From positions 868,001 through 932,000 of the forward strand of contig NZ_SDPV01000002.1 in assembly GCF_004135625.1 (NCBI RefSeq): 64,000 bases of DNA, in the 5' to 3' direction. The notes below the pieces were generated by a model. It did no database searches. It was given only the letters and a program-made list of their open reading frames with translations, and was not told the origin of the DNA. This DNA is from Pelagerythrobacter rhizovicinus (GTDB lineage: Bacteria > Pseudomonadota > Alphaproteobacteria > Sphingomonadales > Sphingomonadaceae). Each line of letters starts with the position of its first letter. Position 1 is the stretch's first letter. Shown here one piece after another: positions 32,852-45,438 of this stretch. A program made the position numbers and the translations under genes.

Positions 32852-34516
32852 ATGCCGCATCACGCGCCGCTCATGGGCACGATCGTCGCAGGTTTCGTCG
32901 TCGCGTTCCTGATGGGGGCGCTGGCGCACAAGCTGCGCGTCTCTCCGGTGGCGGGGTATCTCCTCGCAGGTGTGATCGTCGGCCCCTTCACACCCGGCTT
33001 TGTCGCCGACATCGCGCTGGCCAACGAGCTGGCGGAGCTCGGCGTAATGCTGCTGATGTTCGGGGTCGGGCTGCACTTCTCGCTCCGCGACCTGCTCTCC
33101 GTGAAGAACATCGCCGTGCCCGGCGCGGTGATTCAGATCGCAGTGGCGACCGCACTCGGGCTTGGGCTCGCGCTCTACCTCGGCTGGTCGGTCGCGGCGG
33201 GGCTGGTCTTCGGCCTCGCGCTGTCGGTTGCGAGCACCGTCGTGCTGCTGCGCGCACTCCAGGCCCGGAACCTGGTCGAGACCGATCGCGGACGGATCGC
33301 GGTCGGCTGGCTGATCGTCGAGGACCTGGCGATGATCCTCGCGCTGGTCCTGCTCCCCGCCATGGCCGGCATGTTCGAAGGGGAGCCGGGCGAAGGCGCA
33401 AGCGGCAGCGGCCTGCTGACTGCCCTTGCACTTACCGTGCTCAAGGTTGGCGGCTTCCTCGCCTTCATGCTGATCGTGGCCCGGCGGGTCATCCCGGCGG
33501 CGCTGCATTGGACCGCGCACACCGGATCGCGCGAACTCTTCCGCCTGGCCGTGCTGTCGATCGCGCTGGGCGTCGCGCTGGGCGCGGCCTATGTGTTCGA
33601 CGTCTCCTTCGCACTCGGCGCCTTCTTCGCCGGCATGATCCTGGGCGAGACGCAGTTGAGCCGTCGCGCCGCGGAAGAGACTCTGCCCCTGCGCGACGCA
33701 TTCGCGGTACTGTTCTTCGTCTCGGTCGGCATGCTGTTCGACCCCTCGGTGATGGTGGAGCAGCCCGGGCCGGTTGTCGCCACGGTCGCTATCATCGTGA
33801 TCGGAAAATCACTCGCTGCCTATGGCATCGTGCGGGCGTTCGGGCACGACAACAACATTGCGTTGACCGTTGCAGGAAGCCTCGCCCAGATCGGCGAGTT
33901 CTCATTCATCCTGGCGGGCTTGGGAATGCAGCTCGGCATCCTGCCGCCGGAAGGCCGCGACCTGATTCTCGCCGGCGCGATCTTCTCGATTCTCTTCAAT
34001 CCGCTGATCTTCACACTTGTCGCGGGGCGTCTCGGCGAGGTGAAGCGGCGCGAAGAGGCGGACGCGCGGGAGCGCGAGGACGCCCGCCAGCGCGAACGGC
34101 GCGAGCACGTGATCCTCGTCGGGCACGGCCGCGTCGGGAGACTGATTGCGGAAGGCGCCGCGCACCGCGGCCGGGCGCTGGTCGTCATCGAAGAGCAGGT
34201 AGACTTCGCGCGTGCGGCGGAGGCGGCCGGGCGAGAGGTCGTGATCGGCAACGCGACCAATCCGCACGTCCTCGACGAGGCGGGCATCCAGCAGGCGTCC
34301 AAGCTGATCATCGCGATTCCCGAGGGCTTCGAGGGCGGAGCGATCGCCGCGCACGCGCGGCGTCTGAATCCCGGGGTCGTCATCTTCGCGCGCGCCCATT
34401 CGGACGAGGAGGTCGACTATCTCCAACGGCTCGGCGTCGACCACGTGATCATGGGTGAGCGTGAGATCGCACGCGCCATTCTCGGCCTCGCCGCAACCAG
34501 CCGCCCGGCCGCCTGA
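32852..34516 (+). CDS. Cation:proton antiporter, YbaL/KefB-like
   Basis: The 554-residue protein has an N-terminal Na+/H+ exchanger (CPA2) domain of about 12 helices, including GVGLHFSLRDLL, SVASTVVLLRAL and ASTV-type cores, and a C-terminal RCK_N domain from about residue 415, with the nucleotide-binding GHGRVGR at 424-430 and VIGNATNPHVLDEAGI. It resembles YbaL and RosB: potassium or sodium exchange with regulation by NAD(H). The RCK_C domain is absent. A highly charged Arg/Glu linker joins the two parts. It stands alone after the rplM-rpsI terminator. Confidence 0.9.
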   Translation: MPHHAPLMGTIVAGFVVAFLMGALAHKLRVSPVAGYLLAGVIVGPFTPGFVADIALANELAELGVMLLMFGVGLHFSLRDLLSVKNIAVPGAVIQIAVATALGLGLALYLGWSVAAGLVFGLALSVASTVVLLRALQARNLVETDRGRIAVGWLIVEDLAMILALVLLPAMAGMFEGEPGEGASGSGLLTALALTVLKVGGFLAFMLIVARRVIPAALHWTAHTGSRELFRLAVLSIALGVALGAAYVFDVSFALGAFFAGMILGETQLSRRAAEETLPLRDAFAVLFFVSVGMLFDPSVMVEQPGPVVATVAIIVIGKSLAAYGIVRAFGHDNNIALTVAGSLAQIGEFSFILAGLGMQLGILPPEGRDLILAGAIFSILFNPLIFTLVAGRLGEVKRREEADAREREDARQRERREHVILVGHGRVGRLIAEGAAHRGRALVVIEEQVDFARAAEAAGREVVIGNATNPHVLDEAGIQQASKLIIAIPEGFEGGAIAAHARRLNPGVVIFARAHSDEEVDYLQRLGVDHVIMGEREIARAILGLAATSRPAA

Positions 34517-34553
34517 CTCGAATCGGCCCCGGATTGTTCCGGCAATCATCGTT

Positions 34554-34571
34554 CCGTCATACGACTGCCAC
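34554..34571 (+). promoter_or_regulatory. Pho-box-like direct repeat upstream of the receptor/phytase operon
   Basis: CCGTCAT-ACGA-CTGCCAC is a 7-4-7 direct repeat that matches the PhoB box (CTGTCAT, 4 bases, CTGTCAT) at 11 of 14 informative positions. It lies 60 bases before the receptor start, on the coding strand, and the downstream genes encode phosphate-scavenging functions. Regulation by phosphate starvation is a good hypothesis, not proven. Confidence 0.5.
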
Positions 34572-34630
34572 GCGCGTGTAACGCGCGCACCCTAGCGGCC
34601 CCTCCAACACGGTTCAGGAGGGCAAGAGAA

Positions 34631-37423
34631 ATGTTCAGCCGCAAGTGCTATCTGCTTTCATCCGCCAGCATGGTACTGGCGGCCGCGATGGCAAGTCCGG
34701 CCTCGGCCGGCGACCTCGTCGGCGGCGTCTACGACGCGAGCGAGACGATCGCCCTGCAGGCCGCGCAAGTGCGGCTTATCGAACTGGATAGAGTCGCGAC
34801 GACCGAGCGAGACGGCAGCTTTGCCTTTCCCGACGTGCCGGCCGGTGAATACACCCTCGAAGTCAACTATGTCGGCGCGCCGAGCGTCCGCCAGACCGTG
34901 AGCGTTCCGGCAGACGGCTACGTCCGCACCGACGTGCTGATCGGCGGCGACGACGCGCGCGAGATCCTGGTCGTCGGCCAGAGCGCCAATCTCGCGAGCG
35001 CCCTGTCGCGCAAGCGCGGGAACGACGGCGTGAGCGACGTGCTGACGCGCGACGCGATCGGCCAGTTCCCCGACCAGAACGTCGCCGAGTCGCTGCGTCG
35101 CCTGCCTGGCGTCAACGTGCTCAACGACCAGGGCGAGGGCCGCTTTGTCTCGATTCGGGGACTCGATCCGGAGCTCAACGCAACCTCGCTCAACGGCGTG
35201 CGCCTGCCGGCCCCGGAATCGGACGTCCGCTCGGTCGCGCTCGACGTCATATCGAGCGACATCATCGAATCGATCGAGATCAAGAAGTCGCTGACACCCG
35301 ACATGGATGCGGACACGATCGGCGCCTCGATCGAAATCGAGACGACCAGCGCCTTCGACCGCAAGAAGGACCTGCTCACTGCCAAGATCGAGGGTAGCTA
35401 CAACGACTACGCCGACCACGTCTCGCCCAAGGGCAGCATCGATTTCGCCGCCAAGCTGAGCGACAACTTCGGCGTGTCCGGCGGCGCATCGTACTACAAG
35501 CGCAAGTTCGAGACCGACAACATCGAGGCCGACGGCTGGGACGACGACGACGGGCTGATCTACGCCGAGGAAGTCAACTACCGCGACTACGACGTGGAGC
35601 GGGAGCGGATCAGCGCCAATCTCAACTTCGACCTGCGGCTGAGCGACACGACCGAGCTCTACCTGCGCGGCCTCTACAGCCAGTTCGACGACCAGGAATA
35701 TCGCCGTGAGGTCTCGCTGAAGTTCGGCGAAGCGCCGAGCTCGGGCAGCGGAACGAGCGTCGAGTTCGACGACGCCGACGGCGAGATCGAGGTGCAGCGC
35801 TCGATCAAGGACCGTTTCGAGACGCAGCGCATCCGCTCGATCGTCCTCGGCGGCGAGACCGACACCGGTGACTGGAAGGCCAGCTATTCGGCGAGCTGGG
35901 CCAAGTCGACCGAGAACGAGGACGGCTCGGTCGATCCGGCCAATTTCGAGGCAGGCTTCGAGGAAAGCGGTCTGGCTGTCGGCGTCGACTATTCCGATCC
36001 GCGCAAGCCGCTCTATTCGGTCAGCGGGTCGAACGCCGCGGCCTTCTTCGATCCCCTCGAATATGAGCTCGACGACATCACCGTTACCGCTCTTTCCAAC
36101 TCGCAGGACGAAGAGTTCGCCGCCAAGTTCGACCTTGGCCGCGAGTTCGTCACCGACGGCGGCACGTTCACCGTGCAGGGCGGCGCCAAGGCGCGCTGGC
36201 GCGACAAGAGCTACAACCTAGAGGCGCGCTATTTCGAGAATGACGATCTGACGCTGGCTGACGTTCTCGGCGAGCAGACCTACCGCCTCACCGACATCTC
36301 GCCGGTCCCGAACTATCACGGCGCGCGTGACCTCCTGTTCGGCAATCCCGGCGATTTCACACTGGTCCCGCTCGACAGTGATTTCGATAGTGCAGTGGAG
36401 GACTATTCGGTCACTGAAGACATTCTTGCCGGCTACCTGCTCGGCCGCTGGGACAGCGCCACGCTGCGGGTGATCGGCGGCGTCCGCTACGAGCGGACCA
36501 AGAACGACATCACCGGCAACGAAGTCCTGCTGGTGGAAGACGAGGCCGTAACCGTCTCCCCGGTCACGTACGAGCGTGACTACGAGCACTGGCTGCCCAG
36601 CCTCACCATCCGTTACGAGCCGGTGCCCGACCTGGTGCTGCGCGCCGCCGGCTATCGCAGCTTGATGCGGCCCAAGCTGTCCAAGCTCGCCCCGCGCTTC
36701 GTCGTGGAGGAGAACGACGACGGTGAGCGCGAGGGCGAGTTCGGCAATCCCGACCTGCTGCCCTACGAGGCGTGGAACCTCGATGCTTCGGCCGAATGGT
36801 ACTTCTCCGGCAACGGGGCAATCACCGCGGCGGTGTTCTACAAGGACATCAAGAACTTCATCGTCGACACCGTGCGCGAGGACGATGTCTATCAGGGGAT
36901 CGAGTTCGACGAGGCGACGATTCCGATCAACGGCGAGAGCGCGGAAGTCTTCGGCGTCGAGCTTTCGGTCGCGCAGAAGTTCGACATGCTGCCGGCGCCG
37001 CTCGACGGGCTGCTGATGCAGGCGAACTATACCTATACCGACGCGACCGGGCTCGTCCCGAACGACGGCGATCCCATGGACCTGCGCGAGATCACGCTGC
37101 CAGCGACCTCGAAACACACGGCCAATGTCGCCCTGGGATACGAAAAGGGCCCCATCAGCTTGCGTCTCGCAGGCACCTATCGCGACTCCTATCTCGACGA
37201 GCTGGGCGACGACGCCCAGGAAGATCGCCTGGTCGACGACCACTTCCAGCTCGATCTCAGCGCTAAGTACCGCGTCAGCGACAACGTTCAGCTCTTCTAT
37301 GAATGGGTGAACATCAACAACGCCAAGTACTTCGCCTACAACACCTATGGCGGGCGCAGGAATCTCTACCAGTACGAAGAATACAGCTGGACCATGAAAT
37401 TCGGGGCGAGGGTGAACTTTTGA
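34631..37423 (+). CDS. TonB-dependent receptor with carboxypeptidase-regulatory N-terminal domain
   Basis: The 930-residue protein has a signal peptide (cleavage after ASA, about residue 26), a CarboxypepD_reg-like domain (about 27-105, GDLVGGVYDASETIALQAAQ), a TonB-box-like EILVVG (111-116), a plug domain (GQFPDQNVAESLRRLPGVNV, SIRGLDPELNATSLNGVRLP) and a 22-strand-type barrel ending in F. This receptor type imports organic substrates across the outer membrane by TonB-ExbBD energy. The stop overlaps the phytase start by one base, so it likely takes up phytate or its lower inositol phosphates. Ribosome binding is by GGAGGGCAAG upstream. Confidence 0.9.
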   Translation: MFSRKCYLLSSASMVLAAAMASPASAGDLVGGVYDASETIALQAAQVRLIELDRVATTERDGSFAFPDVPAGEYTLEVNYVGAPSVRQTVSVPADGYVRTDVLIGGDDAREILVVGQSANLASALSRKRGNDGVSDVLTRDAIGQFPDQNVAESLRRLPGVNVLNDQGEGRFVSIRGLDPELNATSLNGVRLPAPESDVRSVALDVISSDIIESIEIKKSLTPDMDADTIGASIEIETTSAFDRKKDLLTAKIEGSYNDYADHVSPKGSIDFAAKLSDNFGVSGGASYYKRKFETDNIEADGWDDDDGLIYAEEVNYRDYDVERERISANLNFDLRLSDTTELYLRGLYSQFDDQEYRREVSLKFGEAPSSGSGTSVEFDDADGEIEVQRSIKDRFETQRIRSIVLGGETDTGDWKASYSASWAKSTENEDGSVDPANFEAGFEESGLAVGVDYSDPRKPLYSVSGSNAAAFFDPLEYELDDITVTALSNSQDEEFAAKFDLGREFVTDGGTFTVQGGAKARWRDKSYNLEARYFENDDLTLADVLGEQTYRLTDISPVPNYHGARDLLFGNPGDFTLVPLDSDFDSAVEDYSVTEDILAGYLLGRWDSATLRVIGGVRYERTKNDITGNEVLLVEDEAVTVSPVTYERDYEHWLPSLTIRYEPVPDLVLRAAGYRSLMRPKLSKLAPRFVVEENDDGEREGEFGNPDLLPYEAWNLDASAEWYFSGNGAITAAVFYKDIKNFIVDTVREDDVYQGIEFDEATIPINGESAEVFGVELSVAQKFDMLPAPLDGLLMQANYTYTDATGLVPNDGDPMDLREITLPATSKHTANVALGYEKGPISLRLAGTYRDSYLDELGDDAQEDRLVDDHFQLDLSAKYRVSDNVQLFYEWVNINNAKYFAYNTYGGRRNLYQYEEYSWTMKFGARVNF

Positions 37424-38469
37424 TGAAAAACCTTTCCAAGCTTCTTCCGCTCGCTGCAGTTCTTGCCATTGTAAGCGGTTGTGCGACCACGCCGATCATG
37501 GGCGATCCCGCGGTCGAGGTCACTGCGTCCGCCGAGACCCACCCGGTCGGCACTGCGAATGCGGATGCCGCGGACGATCCCGCGATATGGCGCAATGCCG
37601 AAGACCCGGCGGCGAGCCTGATCGTCGCGACCGACAAGAAAGCCGGGCTCTACGTCTATGGACTGGATGGTCTGGCCCACCACTTTCTCCCCGGTGGCCG
37701 GCTCAACAACGTCGATATCTTCGAGCTTGCCGACGGCACCGTGCTCGTGGGTGCCAGCGAGCGAACCGATCCCGCCAATGCCAAGGTGGCGCTGTTCACC
37801 CTCGACACAAGGCGCGGCGAGCTGCGCCATGTGACCACGATCGATGTCGGACCCGGAGAAGGCTACGGCTTCTGCATGGGGCCGGGGCGCGATGGTGCCG
37901 ACGTCATGCTCTATTCGCCGGTCAAGGAGGGCTCGCTCCACGGCCAGGCGCTGCGCTGGAACGGCGGCAACGCCACGGTCGAGACCGTGTTCCGGCACGA
38001 GTTGGCTTCGCAGCCGGAGGGCTGTGTGGTCGATCCGCGCGACGGCACGCTCTACGTCGGCGAGGAGATGGCGGGCATCTGGCGCTTCCGCATGGACGGG
38101 ACGCCCGAGGAGCGGGCGGGCGAACTGGTCGCGCGGGTCGACAACGCCATGCTGGTCGCCGATGTCGAAGGCTTGGCCATCGTGCCCGAGGGCGACCGCG
38201 GCGGGCTTCTGGTCGCGTCGAGCCAAGGCGACAATGCCTACGCCGTGTTCCGGCTGCCCGGAATGGAGCCGGTCGGCCGCTTCCGGATCGCGGCCGGCCG
38301 TGTCGGCAGCGCCGAGGAGACCGATGGCATCGATCTCAAGCTCGGCGACTTCGGCCCCGAGTTCCCGGCAGGCCTGTTCATCGCGCAGGACGGCATGAAC
38401 GAGCCGGAGGCTCAGAACTTCAAGCTCGTGCGGTGGGATAGCGTGCTCGAGGCGCTCGGCGAGCGCTAG
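37423..38469 (+). CDS. Beta-propeller phytase, lipoprotein
   Basis: The 348-residue product has a lipobox VSGC (Cys20) and the 3-phytase/beta-propeller (BPP) motifs: ADAADDPAIWRNAEDPAASLIVATDKKAGLYVY is interrupted by none of the usual gaps; the calcium- and phosphate-binding residues in DDPAIW, GRLNNVDI and DVEGLAIVPE are kept. BPPs are calcium-dependent and release phosphate from phytate. The lipid anchor suggests an envelope-bound enzyme working next to the TonB receptor encoded just upstream (1-base overlap). The pairing is known from other Gram-negative bacteria. Confidence 0.9.
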   Translation: MKNLSKLLPLAAVLAIVSGCATTPIMGDPAVEVTASAETHPVGTANADAADDPAIWRNAEDPAASLIVATDKKAGLYVYGLDGLAHHFLPGGRLNNVDIFELADGTVLVGASERTDPANAKVALFTLDTRRGELRHVTTIDVGPGEGYGFCMGPGRDGADVMLYSPVKEGSLHGQALRWNGGNATVETVFRHELASQPEGCVVDPRDGTLYVGEEMAGIWRFRMDGTPEERAGELVARVDNAMLVADVEGLAIVPEGDRGGLLVASSQGDNAYAVFRLPGMEPVGRFRIAAGRVGSAEETDGIDLKLGDFGPEFPAGLFIAQDGMNEPEAQNFKLVRWDSVLEALGER

Positions 38470-44775: not shown

Positions 44776-44805
44776 TTGACCAACTGTATTAAGCGTGTAA
44801 TACAG
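44776..44805 (+). promoter_or_regulatory. Promoter with overlapping palindromic operator for the PIMT-tolC operon
   Basis: TTGACC (44776-44781) and TAATAC (44798-44803), 16 bases apart, form a good sigma-70-type promoter. A perfect 8-6-8 palindrome CTGTATTA-N6-TAATACAG (44784-44805) covers the spacer and the -10. Such placement fits repression by a TetR-like dimer. No regulator gene is adjacent, so the repressor would be encoded elsewhere. Confidence 0.65.
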
Positions 44806-44820: not shown

Positions 44821-45438
44821 ATGACACTTGCCGAAACCCGCACCGCCCAGACCAGCGCCGTTGAGGCCGACTTCGCTGCCGCCAGGCGCGCGATGATCGA
44901 CAGCCAGCTCCGGACAAGCGGCGTCAACACCGCCTTCGTGCTCGAGCGGATGAGCGCCGTGGCGCGCGAGGCGCACGTTCCGGAAGGCGCGCGCGGGGTC
45001 GCCTACATGGATCGCGGGATCGCCTTCGACGGTGGTGGGCACATTGCCGCACCGCTGTTCTACGGGATGGCCTTGCAGGAAGCGCGCCCCGGACCGAGCG
45101 ACGAGGTTCTCGTGGTCGATGGCGGCAGCGGATATCTGCCTGCGCTGCTGGAGCCGCTCGTGAAGTCGGTCAAGGTGATCACGCCCGAGCAAGCGCTGGG
45201 TTCGCTGCGCGGAACATTCTCGCTGATCCTGATCGACGGCGCGGTCGAGCAGTTCCCCGATACGCTGGGCCGCCGCCTCGCCGAGGACGGGCGCGTCGTG
45301 ACCGGTCTCGTCTCCAGCGGTGTGACGCGACTCGCGATCGGCCGGCCGGCCGGCGGCGCGATCGGCTGGCTCCGCCTGGCGGAGATCGGCATCCCGCGCA
45401 TGAGGCAGTTCGACGCCCCGAAACGGTGGAGCTTCTGA
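44821..45438 (+). CDS. Protein-L-isoaspartate O-methyltransferase-family protein, shortened
   Basis: The 205-residue protein resembles the PIMT family (AARRAMIDSQLRTSGVN, RMSAVAREAHVPEGARGVAYMD at the start), but the SAM-binding motif I is altered to VVDGGSGYLPALLEP and the C-terminal half is short, so methyltransferase activity may be weak or lost. The start at 44821 is preceded by GAGG; upstream TTG frames lie within the promoter. The stop is two bases before the ATG of the tolC-like gene. A PIMT-like gene followed by tolC and a DUF2497 gene is a common alphaproteobacterial order. Confidence 0.78.
   Translation: MTLAETRTAQTSAVEADFAAARRAMIDSQLRTSGVNTAFVLERMSAVAREAHVPEGARGVAYMDRGIAFDGGGHIAAPLFYGMALQEARPGPSDEVLVVDGGSGYLPALLEPLVKSVKVITPEQALGSLRGTFSLILIDGAVEQFPDTLGRRLAEDGRVVTGLVSSGVTRLAIGRPAGGAIGWLRLAEIGIPRMRQFDAPKRWSF

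Follow-up and report, generated by a model that had tools for sequence, protein, structure and literature searches.

The 64,000-nucleotide stretch of the Pelagerythrobacter rhizovicinus genome analyzed here (the window; contig NZ_SDPV01000002.1, positions 868,001 to 932,000) contains a gene for a TonB-dependent receptor followed directly by a gene for a beta-propeller phytase. We consider it probable, at roughly 87%, that the two form an operon for phytate scavenging that is activated by PhoB. At low phosphate, PhoB bound to tandem half-sites would recruit RNA polymerase to a weak -10 element at 34593 (coordinates are those of the window, and features lie on its forward strand unless stated otherwise). 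Receptor and phytase would then be made together, coupled through a TGATG junction. The phytase, lipid-anchored in the outer membrane, would strip phosphate from phytate, and the receptor would carry phytate or its lower phosphates over that membrane. The same promoter contains an inverted repeat that covers the receptor's Shine-Dalgarno sequence, for which we tentatively propose a role in translation.

Both genes are readily assigned to families. The receptor (34631-37423, 930 residues) consists of an N-terminal CarboxypepD_reg-like domain (PF13620), a plug (PF07715) and a barrel (PF00593), the latter two above the Pfam cut-offs, and it matches the NCBIfam model TIGR01782 with 606 bits against a cut-off of 310. 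An STN domain, the mark of FecA-type signaling receptors, gave no match in the receptor at an E-value of 0.001, and the CarboxypepD_reg-like domain stands in its place. The phytase (37423-38469, 348 residues) matches PF02333 over residues 26-347 (E 5e-62, 210.5 bits, cut-off 21) and is the only protein of the genome to do so. Its closest solved structures by sequence are the Bacillus 3-phytases 3amr (E 3e-51) and 1poo (E 2e-50), and its sole NCBIfam match is a myxosortase-dependent phytase-like family, below the cut-off of that family. In the alignment with the Bacillus enzyme, read by hand, 14 of the 15 positions that we take to be its calcium and phosphate ligands are identical. The nearest phytases (83-88% identity) come from Altererythrobacter and Pelagerythrobacter (Erythrobacteraceae).

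The phytase begins with a signal peptide and the lipobox AIVSGC, whose cysteine is residue 20 (codon 37480-37482). Together with the PF02333 match this supports the initial annotation, which had described a lipid-anchored beta-propeller phytase, and the alanine that follows the lipobox cysteine points to a location in the outer membrane. A one-base overlap of the two genes had also been noted and is indeed present: base 37423 belongs to both reading frames, within the TGATG (37421-37425) that forms the receptor stop and the phytase start. Such an overlap suggests translational coupling of receptor and phytase.

Upstream of the receptor lies an array of four Pho box half-sites in 11-base steps (34543-34582): a weak CAATCAT at 34543, CCGTCAT at 34554, CTGCCAC at 34565 and GTGTAAC at 34576. 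It was identified with a position matrix trained on pstS promoters and by alignment of four genus relatives. The initial annotation had pointed to a 7-4-7 repeat resembling a PhoB box some 60 bases upstream. This repeat, CCGTCAT-acga-CTGCCAC at 34554-34571, is found 59 bases 5' of the ATG; it is real as the middle pair, while the view of only two half-sites gives way to one of four. The matrix was built from the pstS upstream regions of 30 relatives, with sites from 26 and no phytase locus among them. On both strands of the window the site at 34554 ranks first among 127,966 positions with 16.4 bits and the overlapping pair at 34565 third with 13.3 bits, and these ranks persist when the window's genus is left out of the matrix. 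An earlier version of the matrix was partly wrong, as ten minus-strand pstS loci had been misoriented, and was replaced for the main box counts. With that version, the half-site at 34543 paired with 34554 scored only 3.8 bits, and, of 5000 shuffled versions of the 114-base intergenic region, one scored as high as the site. The regulatory system itself is present in the genome: there is one PhoB ortholog above the curated cut-off, and strong boxes precede pstS and pstC (earlier matrix), with a score of 23.0 for pstS in the final one.

Could the repeat be a chance match? Single matches are not rare, as a Hamming scan of the genome found 88 sites with at most three mismatches against 30 in the reversed control. 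In the genome scan with a simple consensus, however, the sites at 34543 and 34554 both match and overlap. The ranks of first and third in the window likewise argue against chance, as do the conservation of place and phase in the orthologs and the fresh leaders described below, so that we regard this explanation as highly improbable.

The gene pair is widespread. Of 199 genomes surveyed in the family, 88 encode a PF02333 phytase, as do all seven of the genus. Leaving out the window genome and a fragment (G070) and adding three genus members gave 89 loci, of which 48 have an orthologous receptor (above 800 bits) on the same strand 5' of the phytase. With the window this makes 49 loci. Of these, 42 retain the one-base junction; in the remaining seven the genes are either separated by 0.7 to 2 kb (five) or joined by a different short junction (two). 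Among the 42 phytases with the TGATG junction, 39 carry a lipobox pattern. A second set of 80 loci, which overlaps the 89, showed a similar picture, with a receptor ortholog in 54 and the one-base junction in 48 of these.

Across these orthologs, with start codons picked by rule and with G070 and the masked L171 leader left out, a box scoring at least 12 precedes the receptor in 28 of 48 upstream regions compared with 6 of 1195 control tiles from the same loci; at a threshold of 14 the counts are 20 of 48 and 1 of 1195. In 39 fresh leaders, which are less than 90% identical to the earlier ones and were scored without control tiles, 14 boxes reach at least 12 and 21 at least 10. The initial annotation had proposed a scan with a PhoB matrix and had listed a failure to exceed background among the outcomes that would refute it; the scan places the site above background both in the window and for a share of the orthologs. 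The signal extends to the other 41 phytase loci, which have a different, partial or no nearby receptor: a box of at least 12 lies near the phytase or receptor start in 20 of them, and one of these start regions holds the top-scoring site of the locus in 27.

The spacing between box and -10 element is conserved as well. We counted offsets from the first base of a box and took phase 28 to mean 28 plus or minus a multiple of 11. Of the 32 ortholog promoters whose box scores at least 10, 27 have a TA in this phase; such a TA occurs 27 times, compared with 21 in all ten other phases combined. The fresh leaders have a TA in phase in 15 of 21 cases, and a count by eye puts it at offset 28 in 15 of the 26 promoters of pstS. 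E. coli phoA has the same spacing of TA from its box. In PhoB-activated promoters the box stands in for a -35 element; a sigma-70 pair of -35 and -10 elements was not found here, though shuffles yield none either. From the box-to-TA spacing we predict TAGCGG at 34593-34598, which is offset by 28 from the half-site at 34565, to be the -10 element, with transcription starting near 34605.

The box and its spacing also bear on what the operon is for. The receptor might instead import a metal such as phytate-chelated iron, with the phytase serving to release metal rather than to supply phosphate. Many TonB-dependent receptors carry metals and phytate binds them, but the promoter has a box and spacing of the pstS type, and we find this alternative quite improbable. 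Several observations do weigh against a phosphate-controlled phytate operon. The substrate of the receptor is read from the gene pairing, TIGR01782 being a broad family, and the phosphate control is a prediction from sequence rather than from expression. The position we take to be ligand D308 of the Bacillus enzyme aligns with a glycine in the window phytase. Of the genome's 42 other TonB-dependent receptors, 4 also have a box of at least 12 upstream. Lastly, a score of 12 is missed by 20 of the 48 ortholog upstream regions, 10 of which stay below 8, and by 25 of the 39 fresh leaders, so that either Pho control is absent from some loci or the matrix is overly strict.

Related systems have been described, and the initial annotation's remark that phytases are known to pair with TonB receptors agrees with this literature. 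In Citromicrobium bathyomarinum JL354, which like the window belongs to the Sphingomonadales, a receptor gene adjoins a phytase gene and phytic acid was proposed as the substrate; unlike here, the promoter is not described in the available part of that paper (PMC3400609). Flavobacterium johnsoniae has a PF02333 phytase beside a TonB-dependent transporter (Fjoh_1367/Fjoh_1368), both upregulated at low phosphate and, as in our case, predicted to be in the outer membrane. This pair comes from the Bacteroidetes, however, and a box, a TGATG junction or an inverted repeat are not described in the portion of the report available (PMC8115612). The PhoB regulon of Caulobacter crescentus, an Alphaproteobacterium like the window organism, comprises a phytase and several TonB-dependent receptors, although the accessible text does not state a single operon (PMC11208175). 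By analogy with Flavobacterium and Caulobacter, both induction under phosphate limitation and uptake of phytate-derived products are likely here. Among the matches listed for literature on phytase, TonB and PhoB, on the Sphingomonadales Pho regulon and on hidden ribosome sites, none of the titles and abstract openings concerned this promoter or repeat, and the parts available of PMC9414882 and PMC4265352 mention neither this promoter nor read-through hairpins. The regulatory site, which the initial annotation had called new to its own reading, may be new; the gene pairing and its phosphate control are already known elsewhere. With the Pho box, the known pairing gains a regulon assignment that can be tested across a large group of phytase-bearing bacteria.

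The promoter contains a second feature that the initial annotation had missed. Alignment within the genus revealed an inverted repeat whose second arm, GGAGGG at 34617-34622, is the Shine-Dalgarno sequence of the receptor, 9-14 bases 5' of its ATG. The first arm, CCCTCC at 34600-34605, lies between the -10 element and the predicted start. In other genera the arm sequences differ and the pairing is retained (for example in the loci L127, L136 and L178). The repeat is not universal, since the stem score is below 14 in 18 of the 48 orthologs, as in most controls. It was also recognized by eye in some distantly related phytase receptors (L109, L131, L141 and L173). A composite DNA pattern has matches in three of the seven genus genomes.

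The evidence for the repeat comes from comparison between leaders. RNAalifold found no structure in a MAFFT alignment of the 48 leaders; as the arms appear to be out of register there, we used arm-swap tests, in which the upstream part of one leader is joined to the Shine-Dalgarno part of another. In 43 leaders the cognate arms pair better than the swapped ones (0 of 2000 permutations equal). The gap in free energy between cognate and swapped arms is -3.21 kcal/mol for the orthologs. Values near zero were obtained for 42 other receptors of the genome (-0.04) and for 204 control leaders (-0.13); of 2000 subsets drawn from the controls, not one matched the ortholog gap. An additional 36 leaders gave -3.06 (0 of 2000). 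We rely on free energy here because the stem score gave a signal in one control sample: its 80 leaders beat all permutations on stem score, a result that free energy did not reproduce (139 of 2000), and a second sample showed no stem-score signal (1794 of 2000). The pstS leaders gave no arm-swap signal (465 of 2000), and the window leader taken singly folds no better than its own shuffles (z 0.06).

For finer mapping, positions were counted from the T of the -10 element, and 28 of 87 leaders that have no C/T-TA element were dropped. In the remaining 59, the probability of pairing climbs from 0.40 at T+5 to a maximum of 0.76 at T+10/T+11 and drops after T+12, to 0.39 at T+13. Swapping only the seven bases from T+6 to T+12, in 50 leaders after removal of nine near-duplicates, raised the unpaired fraction of the Shine-Dalgarno sequence from 0.123 to 0.231 (0 of 5000 permutations); swapping neighboring bases opened it less, to 0.143 (109 of 5000) and 0.144 (11 of 5000). 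Swaps and profile agree that the first arm occupies the bases from the -10 element up to the predicted start.

What might such an arrangement do? A possible, if tentative, answer to which we give less than even odds is a lock embedded in the promoter: the bases between -10 element and start would retain complementarity to the Shine-Dalgarno sequence of their own operon and would filter transcripts by where they start. A read-through transcript from the upstream gene would carry both arms, fold and remain untranslated with its ribosome site hidden, while a transcript started by PhoB would begin after the first arm and be translatable. The choice of promoter would thereby set translation, and the receptor would be off when phosphate is plentiful. 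The gene upstream, for a YbaL-like cation/proton antiporter, is co-directional and ends at 34516, and we found no terminator-like site between it and the receptor.

The proposed lock depends on the start site. If transcription starts at the predicted place, the operon's own mRNA has no first arm; if it starts further upstream, the repeat becomes a plain leader hairpin. We therefore weighed a second reading, doubtful but possible, in which transcription starts no later than 34599 and the operon's own mRNA contains the hairpin. There it would limit translation at all times, protect the 5' end, or respond to a regulator (a small RNA or a protein, for example) that opens it. The pairing is kept although the loop varies from 3 to 14 bases among the 24 of 48 leaders in which arms were measured (stem score of at least 14 and a C/T-TA element), as expected of an RNA hairpin. 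This variation speaks at the same time against a third, unlikely reading, a DNA operator for a dimeric regulator: the repeat does straddle the predicted start, a common position for repressors, but arms that differ between genera and lie at such variable distances are unlike the operator of a single protein. Against a hairpin of the operon's own mRNA, the spacing of box and -10 element sets the start about 12 bases past the -10 T, at the end of the first arm, the pairing probability drops at just this end, and an Rfam search gave no match.

Folding of long and short leader forms bears on both the lock and the mRNA hairpin. We compared 72 leaders (15 of 87 had no TA element and were dropped) with 208 controls, letting the short form start at T+12. 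With the first arm the Shine-Dalgarno sequence is unpaired at a mean of 0.12, and without it at 0.34; the values for control genes are 0.38 and 0.42. The long form is closed (below 0.3) in 64 of 72 leaders, which suits either reading. The short forms argue for the mRNA hairpin and against the lock, as they are not clearly open (0.34 against 0.42 in controls, p 0.011). Only 14 of 72 exceed 0.5, the window's own short form stands at 0.22, and a closed long form (below 0.3) is combined with an open short one (above 0.5) in just 11 of 72 leaders, compared with 15 of 208 controls. When upstream genes were oriented by a rough open-reading-frame rule, leader strength was -11.7 behind co-directional genes (46) and -9.5 behind the others (30), with -11.5 for 11 unassigned cases; stronger leaders behind co-directional genes, which the lock would predict, are thus only a trend (p 0.067).

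The proposed lock has counterparts in mobile elements. The transposase genes of IS10 and IS50 are transcribed from starts inside the repeat, and their own transcripts thus escape the hairpin. As in the window, where the arm swaps indicate it, an arm of their repeat pairs with the ribosome site. In IS200 one stem-loop halts incoming transcripts and another occludes the ribosome site, according to the part of the report available (PMC3196728). Such hairpins of insertion sequences guard transposase genes, whereas the window repeat, in its proposed role, lies in an activator-controlled nutrient operon. If the lock exists, a trick of insertion sequences would be at work in a chromosomal nutrient operon, kept across many genera of the family, and this operon would filter transcripts by their start point. 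This would explain how costly outer-membrane receptors are silenced and provide a simple signature to seek in other operons.

Variations of the locus were also seen. A gene for a purple acid phosphatase lies between receptor and phytase in all three loci examined for it, L150 (3557-4951), L164 (3588-4991) and L180 (3965-5425), the last of which is outside the set of 49; these represent a three-gene form of the operon. In four genomes (G081, G067, G083 and G186; loci L101-L104) a single frame of 683-709 residues contains two PF02333 stretches. Elsewhere the receptor beside the phytase is distantly related (23-39% identity) and encoded on the opposite strand, for example in L105-L107, L111, L112, L117 and L120 and further in L121, L123, L156, L160, L162, L163 and L167. 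Several of these loci have Pho boxes between the two genes.

Around the operon, the YbaL-like antiporter gene is found 3' of the phytase and not 5' of the receptor in the genus members L096 (6630) and L097 (6579). In the window a gene for a calcineurin-like phosphoesterase (PF00149; 38486-39343, minus strand) is convergent with the phytase and adjoins it; nothing supports its membership in the operon.

Further Pho-like sites occur in the genome. A weaker one (14.2 with the earlier matrix) lies directly 5' of phoB at C1:1215219 (L185) and suggests autoregulation. The four other TonB-dependent receptors with a box of at least 12, L221 (C2:402149), L213 (C1:1441441), L195 (C2:621761) and L236 (C2:500796), have no strong Shine-Dalgarno stem and are possible candidates for further phosphate-controlled importers. 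Within the window, the second-best matrix match (44784-44801, score 15.0) lies in a near palindrome, CTGTATTA..TAATACAG, just before an open reading frame at 44821, and is possibly a different operator.

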